Positions 2,365 to 53,143 of a stretch of DNA of 64,000 nt are shown here, one piece after another (the first letter of the stretch is position 1; each line of letters begins with the position of its first letter). Location: assembly GCA_033344915.1 (NCBI GenBank), contig JAWPML010000001.1, positions 3,676,263 through 3,740,262 on the forward strand, read 5' to 3'. The notes under the pieces are model-generated. The model did not search any database. It saw nothing but the letters and a program-made list of their open reading frames with translations, and had not been told where the DNA came from. The stretch is from Acidimicrobiales bacterium. GTDB taxonomy: Bacteria; Actinomycetota; Acidimicrobiia; Acidimicrobiales; Aldehydirespiratoraceae. The position numbers were made by a program, and so were the translations under genes.

Positions 2365-2942
2365 CCCCGCAGCAGGCTCTCGGCCGCGCCGCGCCACCGT
2401 CGGTCGCAGTCCTCGCCGGTAGTGCCGAGGAAGCCGGCGGTCTCCTGGGTGGCGAGGCCGACGACGAGGCCGAGCACGGCGTGGGCGATGTCGACCGGGT
2501 CGCCCCGGAGCCGGCCCGCCTGCACCGCCGACTCCGCCCGATCCACGAAGGCCGAGCGGGTCGCGTCGCCGAGCGAACGCTCCTCGGGGGTCGGCGCGTA
2601 GATGTCGAACGGCTTCGTGTACATGACCTCGAAGAGCCGGGGGTGCTCGCGCGTGAAGTCACGGAACGCATCCACGACGGCAAGCAGGTCGGCGGGCGTC
2701 CCCTGCGGTGGGGGGAGCTCGTCGAACCGGTCACGCAGCCGGCGGAAGCCATCGAAGAACACGGCGCGCACGAGGCCGGACTTGTCGCCGAACAGTTCGT
2801 AGATCGCGGGAGCCGAGGTGCCGGCCGCGCTGGCGACGGCGCGGGTGGTCACCCCGGCCGGGCCGTCGACGGCCAGCAGGTCGAGGGCGACGTCGAGGAT
2901 CTTGTCCCGCAGCTCGGGGGTCCGTTGTCGGGGTCGGCCCAC
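2340..2942 (-). CDS. TetR family transcriptional regulator
   Basis: This 200-aa regulator starts with GTG. The N-terminal TetR helix-turn-helix is clear (residues ~30-55: TTRAVASAAGTSAPAIYELF followed by GDKSGLV). The C-terminal ligand domain resembles the WHG/TetR_C_13 type. It lies 7 nt downstream of a crotonase gene on the same strand, so the two are probably co-transcribed from the palindromic operator at 3696-3718, making autorepression and control of the crotonase by an acyl-CoA-type ligand a reasonable inference. No Shine-Dalgarno is visible before the start, which fits translation from the operon mRNA. Confidence 0.9.
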   Translation of the reverse strand: MGRPRQRTPELRDKILDVALDLLAVDGPAGVTTRAVASAAGTSAPAIYELFGDKSGLVRAVFFDGFRRLRDRFDELPPPQGTPADLLAVVDAFRDFTREHPRLFEVMYTKPFDIYAPTPEERSLGDATRSAFVDRAESAVQAGRLRGDPVDIAHAVLGLVVGLATQETAGFLGTTGEDCDRRWRGAAESLLRGYGVDSNE

Positions 2943-2949
2943 GGGCGGA

Positions 2950-3660
2950 TCAGCCGGCGGCGGCGAGCAGGAGATCCTGTTCGGCCTGGTCCTGGGCGAT
3001 GGCCGCCTCGATCACCTCGAGGAGGGGTTCGCGGACGCGCTGCTTCGTCGCCTTCTGCGCGTCGACGTCGAGCGCGAGCAGGCCGGTGGCGACCTCGTGG
3101 ACGCGTGCCTCGAACGCGTCGGCCGGCACGATCTCGTCGAGGATGCCGGCGGCGACCGCGGCCGGGGGATCGAACGTCTCGGAGAGCATGGCGGCCCGCG
3201 GGAACGCGGCCGGCGTCAGTCGTTGGCGCAGCATCTCGGTCGCCGTGCGGGGGAGGGTCAGCCCGATCGCGACCTCGTTCGCGGCGAGCTTGGCGGGCCG
3301 GTCGATGCCGATGCGGTGGTCACCGGCCAGGACGAGGAAAAGGCCCATCGCCATCGCGTGGCCGGTACAGGCGACCACGACGGGGCGGGGGTGCCCGAGG
3401 ATGCGGGCGGCGAGGCGGAAGCCGCCGAGGACCATGTCGATGCTCGCCTGGCCGCCGCCGGTCAGCACGCCCATGTCGAACCCGCCGGAGAACACGCCGT
3501 CGCGCCCGCGGATCACGACGGGCGCGTCGTCTTCCAACGCCCGATCGAGCGCCTCGTCGATGTCGGACTGCATCGCCGGCGACAGGGCATTGGCCTTGCC
3601 GTCGTCGAGATCGATCCAGCCGATCCCGTCGCGAAGGGCGTAGCGAACTCGCTCGGTCAT
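2950..3660 (-). CDS. Crotonase (enoyl-CoA hydratase/isomerase) family protein
   Basis: This 236-aa protein has the crotonase fold: the first CoA-binding strand turn (GKANALSPAM), the oxyanion-hole segment FSGGFDMGVL and a second oxyanion segment in TGHAMAMGLFLVLAGDH. It probably hydrates or isomerises an acyl-CoA in the cytoplasm, but the substrate is unknown, and the glutamates of classical hydratases are not obvious, so another crotonase activity is possible. The ATG at 3660 is chosen because GGAGG lies 5-9 nt upstream; a longer in-frame start at 3771 would run across the operator. It is the first gene of a crotonase-TetR operon. Confidence 0.85.
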   Translation of the reverse strand: MTERVRYALRDGIGWIDLDDGKANALSPAMQSDIDEALDRALEDDAPVVIRGRDGVFSGGFDMGVLTGGGQASIDMVLGGFRLAARILGHPRPVVVACTGHAMAMGLFLVLAGDHRIGIDRPAKLAANEVAIGLTLPRTATEMLRQRLTPAAFPRAAMLSETFDPPAAVAAGILDEIVPADAFEARVHEVATGLLALDVDAQKATKQRVREPLLEVIEAAIAQDQAEQDLLLAAAG

Positions 3661-5494: not shown

Positions 5495-5651
5495 GGAGAC
5501 ACCGATCGTACCGGTCACGCAGCGTCACCCCGCGCCGGTATCCGTCAAGTCTCGGGTCGTTTGGCCGAACCTTGTTCGGAAGAGGGTGCGTCCGCAGTGG
5601 TGCGGCGTCGGCGGAAGAGTCAGCCCTCGAAACACAAGGAATCCCAAGACA

Positions 5652-6082: not shown

Positions 6083-6107
6083 AAGCGGGGGTCAGACCCC
6101 CGCTTCG
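6083..6107. repeat. GGGGTCAGACCCC repeat copy 1, perfect hairpin
   Basis: GAAGCGGGGGTC and its reverse complement flank a single A, giving 12-bp perfect arms. The 20 bases 6081-6100 recur identically at 9941-9960. It lies 9 nt after the lipoprotein stop, a position suited to an RNA 3'-end hairpin, but no U-run follows. Confidence 0.75.
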
Positions 6108-9940: not shown

Positions 9941-9972
9941 TGAAGCGGGGGTCAGACCCCAGTTGAAGCGGG
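9941..9972. repeat. GGGGTCAGACCCC repeat copy 4 plus half copy
   Basis: The 20 bases TGAAGCGGGGGTCAGACCCC are identical to 6081-6100, followed at once by a second partial unit (GTTGAAGCGGGTCAG) that runs into the stop codon of the solute-binding protein gene. Confidence 0.7.
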
Positions 9973-51540: not shown

Positions 51541-51546
51541 GGCGCG

Positions 51547-51580
51547 ACCCTAGGACCGTCCCGTCGACGACCGGTAGTCT
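51547..51580. promoter_or_regulatory. Divergent promoters of the SDR and sulfotransferase-TesB genes
   Basis: Minus strand: TAGGGT (51547-51552), 6 nt before the SDR ATG. Plus strand: AGGACC (51552-51557), 17-bp spacer, TAGTCT (51575-51580), 6 nt before ATG 51587. Confidence 0.55.
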
Positions 51581-51586
51581 GCGGCC

Positions 51587-53143
51587 ATGTCACTGCAGGT
51601 CGTCGGCGCCGGCCTTCCCCGCACCGGAACGACCAGCCTCAAAGCCGCGTTGGAACAGCTGCTCGGCGGGCCCTGCTACCACATGCTCGAGGTCTTCTCC
51701 CGGCTCGACTCCCACGGCCCGGCGTGGATCTCGGCGAGCGGCGGCGATCACTCGCAGCTCGGGGTGACCCTGGACGGCTTCGTCGCGGCGGTCGACTGGC
51801 CGGCGTCGGCCTTCTGGCCGGAGCTGAGCGAACGCCATCCCGAGGCCCGGGTCCTGCTGTCGCGGCGAAGCGACCCGGAGACGTGGTGGCGCAGTATCGA
51901 CCGGACGGTCGGGCAGGCGACCCGTGACCTTCCGCCGGGCGAGCTCTACACGGACTTCATCGCCGGTCTGCTCGCCCGCCTCGGGATCGATGGATTCGAC
52001 GACCCGGACGAGGCGATGCGGGCGTACGAGGCCCACAACGAGCGGGTGCGCGACTCGGTTCCCGCCGATCGGCTCATCGAATGGCAACCGACGGACGGTT
52101 GGGGCCCACTGTGCGCGGGTCTCGGCGTGGACGAGCCGACCGATCCCTTCCCCCACAACAACACGACGTCGGACTTCCGGGCGATGGCCGGCTGGGACCG
52201 AGCGGGCGCCCGCCCATCGTGGGGCGCCGGTGCGCCGCCGCTACCGTGCCTCGCCATGGGCCGTGCACTCGATCAGCTTCTCGACGTCCTCGATCTCGAG
52301 CGGATCGACCGCGACATCTTCCGGGGGCAGAACGAACCGAGCGACTGGTTCCGGCTCTTCGGCGGCCAGGTCGCGGCGCAGGCCCTCGCGGCCGCGCAGC
52401 GCACCGTGGACGAACACCGGGCCCACAGCCTGCACGGCTACTTCCTGCGGGGCGGTGATCCGAAGACCCCGGTGACCTACACGGTCGACCGCATCCGCGA
52501 CGGACGGTCGTTCTCCACACGACGGGTGGTCGCGCTCCAGGACGGCCGCGCCATCTTCAACACCTCCATCTCGTTCCACACTCACGAGGACGGCTACGAG
52601 CACCAGGACCCGATGCCGGACGTGCCCGATCCCGAGACGCTGCCGACGTGGGCCGAGCGGGCCGCGAAGCTCGAGGGCAAGATCCCGGCCGAGCGACTCG
52701 AGTGGATGAAGCGGGAGCGGGCGATCGACACCCGCTCGGCGTTGCCCCACAGCATGTTCTCCGGCGAGCCGAGCACCGAACCGAACCCGGTGTGGATCCG
52801 GGCGAACGGTGACGTACCCGACGACCCGGACATCCACGCCCAGCTCCTCACGTACGCGTCCGACATCGCGTTCGTGGACAACATGTACCGCCCGCACCGG
52901 CGGCCCGGCGGACCCGGCATCATGCTGGCCAGCCTCGACCATGCCCTCTGGTTCCACCGCCCCCTGCGCATGGACGACTGGCTGCTCTTCATCCAGGACA
53001 GCCCCAGCGCGGCCGGTGCCCGCGGGTTCGCCCGGGGCGCGATCTACGACCGCGGTGGCGTCCACCTCGCGTCGGTCGCCCAGGAGGGCGTCATGCGGGA
53101 GCTCGATCCCGAGCGGGCGGACCCCGCGACCGCCCACAACTGA
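51587..53143 (+). CDS. Sulfotransferase-like protein fused to acyl-CoA thioesterase II (TesB)
   Basis: One uninterrupted 518-aa frame. Residues 1-204 are a Sulfotransfer_4-type domain with P loop GLPRTGTTSLK (~8-18), PEARVLLSRRSDPETWW (~85-101) and an end PFPHNNTTSDFRAMAGW. Residues 224-518 are a TesB double hot-dog thioesterase (LFGGQVAAQALAAAQ; GIMLASLDHALWFH; LLFIQDSPSA), which hydrolyses acyl-CoA. The junction (205-223) is Gly/Pro/Ala-rich and unlike either domain. Codon 205 is CGA, one transition from TGA, and TACCGT lies 8 nt before an internal ATG (52256) where TesB proteins normally start. So this is probably two genes joined by loss of a stop codon. Confidence 0.85.
   Translation: MSLQVVGAGLPRTGTTSLKAALEQLLGGPCYHMLEVFSRLDSHGPAWISASGGDHSQLGVTLDGFVAAVDWPASAFWPELSERHPEARVLLSRRSDPETWWRSIDRTVGQATRDLPPGELYTDFIAGLLARLGIDGFDDPDEAMRAYEAHNERVRDSVPADRLIEWQPTDGWGPLCAGLGVDEPTDPFPHNNTTSDFRAMAGWDRAGARPSWGAGAPPLPCLAMGRALDQLLDVLDLERIDRDIFRGQNEPSDWFRLFGGQVAAQALAAAQRTVDEHRAHSLHGYFLRGGDPKTPVTYTVDRIRDGRSFSTRRVVALQDGRAIFNTSISFHTHEDGYEHQDPMPDVPDPETLPTWAERAAKLEGKIPAERLEWMKRERAIDTRSALPHSMFSGEPSTEPNPVWIRANGDVPDDPDIHAQLLTYASDIAFVDNMYRPHRRPGGPGIMLASLDHALWFHRPLRMDDWLLFIQDSPSAAGARGFARGAIYDRGGVHLASVAQEGVMRELDPERADPATAHN
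52242..52247 (+). promoter_or_regulatory. Internal -10 element (TACCGT) before the TesB part
   Basis: TACCGT ends 8 nt before ATG 52256 (residue 224), inside the sulfotransferase-TesB frame, suggesting that TesB can still be made separately. Confidence 0.45.

Follow-up and report, generated by a model that had tools for sequence, protein, structure and literature searches.

The described systems closest to the gene considered here are the standalone bacterial PF17784 sulfotransferases, the TesB-type acyl-CoA thioesterases II (1c8u, 4qfw, and 4r4u) and the C-terminal extensions that arise when a stop codon is lost. As far as the consulted part of the structural work indicates, TesB of Yersinia pestis is a tetramer of protomers, an arrangement that crystals of the E. 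coli and M. marinum enzymes share (PMC4388271). In stop-loss extensions, sequence that did not code before becomes translated once the stop is gone, and the single putative fusion of that study is given in the accessible portion of the paper as an assembly error (Andreatta et al., 2015, PMC4494051). Neighboring genes are known to fuse, and the novelty of the present case is modest; no published fusion of a sulfotransferase (ST) with TesB appeared by title or abstract start in literature searches, and the pair goes unmentioned in the accessible portions of two papers on stop loss and fusion (PMC3711429 and PMC4494051).

The window, i.e., the whole stretch of 64,000 nucleotides that was analyzed, contains a frame in which an ST and a TesB-type thioesterase are read as one protein. 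Its ST part is like the standalone PF17784 enzymes in having a complete domain, a similar length and a similar C-terminus, but the relatives read here stop where this frame continues. The thioesterase part aligns over its whole length with the acyl-CoA thioesterases II (E 2e-81 to 1.6e-75), compared with which the fused form has a 223-residue N-terminal extension. The stop-loss extensions of Andreatta et al. (PMC4494051) share the lost stop; here, however, the extension takes in an entire downstream gene, in a bacterium, and is seen in one assembly set against a sister species.

The two enzyme parts of the fused frame

The frame runs uninterrupted from an ATG to a TGA, and its features are collected in Table 1. 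PF17784 (Sulfotransfer_4) matches residues 4-197 over the full profile (1-215 of 215, E 1.4e-52); the preliminary description had placed the end of the ST domain near residue 204. With 179.1 bits against a gathering cut-off of 22.8, the part belongs to the Pfam family. By sequence, the nearest solved chain is 9kf1_A, followed by SgdX2 (8y9p_A). The thioesterase part (residues ~224-505), for which 4r4u, 4qfw, and 1c8u are the closest solved structures, carries PF13622 at 252-331 and PF02551 at 378-502, both above the Pfam cut-offs (81.2 versus 24.3 bits and 120.7 versus 21 bits, respectively). It falls below the NCBI equivalog cut-offs (278.5 versus 292.85 bits for TIGR00189 and 293.9 versus 481 for NF007817) and is therefore named TesB-type here and not a certified TesB equivalog.

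Both enzyme parts keep conserved residues. The ST has the motif GLPRTGTTSL at residue 9, which we take to bind PAPS, and the thioesterase retains Asp426, Ser449, and Gln499, which align with what we assume to be the functional residues Asp204, Thr228 (Ser here), and Gln278 of E. coli TesB; a PAPS-dependent sulfotransferase activity is only predicted. Between the window genome and its sister (see below), dN/dS is 0.16 for ST, 0.033 for TesB, 0.08 for the adjacent SDR gene and 0.12 for CaiB, values behind which much, perhaps most, of the divergence may predate the fusion. A fold model built on a shallow alignment of 11 sequences shows two folded parts (mean pLDDT 73.8, pTM 0.52) separated by a stretch, residues 204-257, with pLDDT below 50. 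This fits a flexible joint, although the evidence is weak since the low stretch includes the N-terminal helix of TesB.

Table 1. Features of the fused gene and its surroundings (positions in the window).
Feature	Position	Strand	Basis
Fused ST-TesB frame, 518 aa	51587..53143	+	Frame reading and domain profiles
Former ST gene, codons 1-204, PF17784	51587..52198	+	Profile match, C-termini of relatives, solved structures
Codon 205, CGA, aligned with the TGA stop of the sister's ST	52199..52201	+	DNA alignment to the sister genome
Spacer, once intergenic, that now supplies 18 codons of linker; extra base at ~52209	52202..52255	+	Alignment to the sister genome
TACCGT, -10-like box of the putative leaderless TesB promoter	52242..52247	+	Genus loci, spacing count
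TesB-type acyl-CoA thioesterase, original ATG kept	52256..53143	+	Domain profiles, structure matches, genus loci
TAGTCT, -10-like box of a putative leaderless ST promoter, 6 nt from the ATG	51575..51580	+	Same sequence in the sister genome

Stop codon and spacer compared with the sister genome

The sister genome (G005) is a metagenome-assembled genome of the same genus, Acidimicrobiales bacterium DHS20C19 (590 contigs, 81% complete), in which contig BQJV01000015.1 carries ST and TesB as adjacent but separate genes in full synteny with the window (LysE-, SDR-, ST+, TesB+, CaiB-). Its ST is 85% identical to that of the window, and around codon 205 the aligned DNA is GGCTGGGACTGACC in the sister and GGCTGGGACCGAGC in the window, with TGA and CGA, respectively, at the identical codon. 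The preliminary description, made from the window alone, had noted that CGA lies one transition from TGA, had proposed that two formerly separate genes are now read as one and had looked for confirmation to an orthologue with a stop here; the sister genome has that stop, which supports the stop-loss reading. An open frame alone proves little because, under a simple base-composition model, ~23% of stop losses ahead of a spacer of this size at 70% GC would yield an open in-frame fusion by chance. The sister's TGA at exactly codon 205, in the DNA alignment, is real evidence for stop loss.

Loss of the stop had been thought sufficient to join the genes; that part of the proposal does not hold. Between codon 205 and the ATG of TesB there are 54 nt in the window and 53 nt in the sister genome, and reading past codon 205 in the sister's register enters a frame other than that of TesB, so that the 1-nt difference, aligned as one extra base at ~52209 in the window, was also required. 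The spacer thus amounts to 18 codons, and the 19 counted earlier are obtained only by including codon 205. No special cause is needed for such a difference, since 18 of the 63 indels between the window and the sister genome lie outside open reading frames. The two spacers agree at 48 of 54 positions and, from 52210 to 52255, at 43 of 46, versus an overall identity of 88.6%. It is probably the promoter, and not a role as protein linker, that keeps the spacer conserved.

A palindrome, GGGGTCWGACCCC, occurs twice elsewhere in the window, at 6088-6100 and 9948-9960 (0 expected from 100 shuffles). It is present in 79 copies in the window genome, 57 in the sister genome (some paired 22-23 nt apart), 64 in G002 and 92 in G004, and is nearly absent from the rest of the genus (G006, 0; G003, 1; G001, 2). 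It resembles a dispersed repeat of the REP type with a patchy distribution within one genus.

The TesB start and the putative promoter box in the linker

The TACCGT box ends 8 nt before the TesB ATG (52256-52258), as the preliminary description had it, and begins 14 nt upstream of it. Each of the six TesB loci compared has TAC(C/G)GT at a distance of 7-8 nt from the start codon, despite their differing further upstream; when the window junction is aligned with G004, G001, and G003, the matching block starts only at ~52236-52238. A TANNNT motif whose first T lies ~12 bp ahead of the start codon marks leaderless genes, a class frequent in Actinobacteria, according to the part of the source consulted (PMC3160421), and the tesB box conforms to this published description. 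In the window, 15 TANNNT-ATG pairs have a spacing of 6-8 nt, and the remaining spacings between 0 and 20 nt together account for 3; the 386 kb of the sister genome that were counted give 31, 18, and 10 pairs at 6, 7, and 8 nt versus 0-6 at each other spacing. For GTG starts the window gives 4, 3, and 3 at 6, 7, and 8 nt versus 0-1 elsewhere, and the excess is weak in the sister genome (13, 12, and 9 versus 1-11). A Shine-Dalgarno reading of TACCGT was set aside, the TANNNT-ATG spacing peaking at 6-8 nt as -10 boxes do. Because leaderless promoters in this DNA follow that pattern, with TANNNT 6-8 nt from an ATG, TesB is probably also made alone, besides a predicted fused ST-TesB protein; the earlier suggestion to this effect is supported by the conservation of the box in six genomes.

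The 46-nt gap between the divergent SDR and ST genes (51541-51586) contains two TANNNT boxes, each 6 nt from the start that it faces: TAGTCT ahead of ST and, by eye, TAGGGT on the minus strand ahead of SDR. They would form back-to-back promoters of the leaderless type.

The TesB locus was read in four other genomes of the genus. In G003 and G001 the order is SDR-, TesB+, without an intervening ST; LysE- precedes TesB+ in G004 and G006, likewise without ST (LysE being only a partial match in G006). G002, whose TesB-like match consists of two segments of 61% and 41%, was left out. The neighbors of tesB thus vary within the genus (L031-L035), being SDR and LysE, LysE alone, or SDR and ST, and the spot seems to be one that gains and loses genes.

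Relatives of the sulfotransferase and origin of the fusion

The C-termini of ST proteins were read at 48 loci, the window's included; from the order-wide search the 30 best places were read as loci, and the loci from the genus and family ST searches stand outside the 48. Among the 47 others, which are partly non-independent given two probable pairs of duplicate genomes with the same tails and identities (L042/L082 and L044/L088), ST ends at the equivalent of codons 204-209 in 38, the sister included, and at 212-233 in eight; nine, the sister again among these, end at 205 exactly. All but one (46 of 47) terminate on their own within 29 codons of window codon 204, the exception (L058) being a broken match whose stop at 128 is meaningless. 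TesB adjoins ST only in the window genome and its sister (2 of 48 loci), as judged from flanks that were mostly 1.5-3 kb and sometimes ended by contig ends. The gene itself is patchy, with any match in 71 of 397 genomes of the order and 13 of 51 of the family. Within the genus (seven genomes), the 85% orthologue occurs in the sister genome only; four other genomes have merely a 38-41% relative on a different contig, no ST relative was found in G001 (66% complete), and the window genome has a second relative at 31% identity. Across the order (397 genomes), the nearest ST found beyond the pair has 56% identity and comes from another family (G054).

Searching 61 genomes with the whole protein, for which any match over the full length would rank topmost, revealed no second full-length fusion among the matches listed, residues 1-518 being matched only in the window's own genome, and no other ST-TesB fusion stands among the 48 ST loci read. 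Orthologous fusions conserved across the family with an ordered linker, which the preliminary description had named as evidence that would count against stop loss, were thus not seen in these genomes and loci, and the linker region of the model has low confidence throughout. A conserved ancestral ST-TesB fusion was rejected accordingly.

One doubt concerns the sequence itself, the fusion being known from one assembly in which a single consensus error at base 52199 would undo it: the true genome might have TGA there, or be without the extra base, and the genes would be separate. There is a precedent in a putative stop-loss gene fusion of yeast that was a replicated assembly error, as stated in the accessible part of that paper (PMC4494051). 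Over the ~30.6 kb of the window that could be aligned to the sister genome at 88.6% identity, however, no clear frame-breaking indel was found in a gene body among those checked, several others lying near the ends of frames; those at 5614 and 61289 sit upstream of the likely true starts, and a pair lies at 2943/2947. The stop codons of mechanically kept frames are retained in 26 of 28 assessable cases, the two others lying in a gapped stretch and in a frame that overlaps frames of the opposite strand. In-frame stops of the sister inside window frames are confined to codon 205 and two places in the frame 2708-3643. An error would have to strike precisely base 52199 amid ~11% natural divergence, and a 1-nt indel in a spacer is ordinary between species; an artefact is thus very improbable. 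With regard to the frame 2708-3643, the codon-position pattern of its substitutions relative to the sister shifts at ~2943, two stops of the sister fall at aligned codons, and the frame as called probably does not match the true gene over its first part.

That an ancestral, functional fusion was split in the sister could be argued from the clean open frame and from two intact domains under purifying selection, yet it is hardly credible: nearly all other STs end alone close to codon 204, nine of them at 205, the spacer holds a promoter-like box kept in the genus genomes read, TesB occurs without ST in four of them, and no further fusion was listed in 61 genomes. Since 46 of the 47 other STs end alone and TesB lacks ST in four genus genomes, separate genes are, by these comparisons, the ancestral state. 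A less distant possibility, although still an unlikely one, is that ST is decaying in the window lineage, so that the stop loss is a by-product and only TesB from its own promoter matters. The higher dN/dS of ST compared with TesB and its patchy, accessory distribution agree with decay, whereas the otherwise intact ST frame, the preserved GLPRTGTTSL motif and a promoter box identical in the sister speak against it.

The preferred reading, stop loss and a 1-nt length difference joining two separate genes, begins in the ancestor shared by the window genome and its sister, where a PF17784 ST gene came to sit immediately before an older gene of the tesB type; this is the most likely course because other loci of the genus have no ST between the neighbors and tesB. 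The ST gene would most likely have entered as an insertion that separated tesB from the divergent SDR gene; the synteny is observed, and a gain is preferred to repeated loss. In the window lineage, the comparison indicates that the TGA of ST became CGA and that the 1-nt difference in spacer length brought tesB into frame, so that a ribosome on the ST message would read on through TesB, the product being an ST-linker-TesB protein of 518 aa. The old leaderless promoter of tesB would survive inside the linker, making dual products, fused ST-TesB and TesB alone, plausible. With conserved residues kept in both enzymes and a linker of formerly intergenic sequence, the fusion is probably recent and near-neutral. 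This history as a whole is considered very probable, and the sequence comparison gives good support both to the fusion and to its derivation from a lost stop together with a 1-nt length difference. As the TesB enzymes named at the outset form tetramers, the two forms could mix, with ST domains displayed on a thioesterase core; the result would be a newly arisen bifunctional complex in which two promoters determine how much ST is carried, but this is unlikely.

The locus appears to be a genuine young gene fusion of an ordinary sort, known from one assembly. It offers a clean natural case in which the pre-fusion state is still visible in a sister species, together with both of the required changes, a substitution and a single-base length difference, and with a downstream promoter that would be trapped within the new linker. 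For annotators, it is a warning that the 518-aa product is not a domain architecture of the family as a whole.
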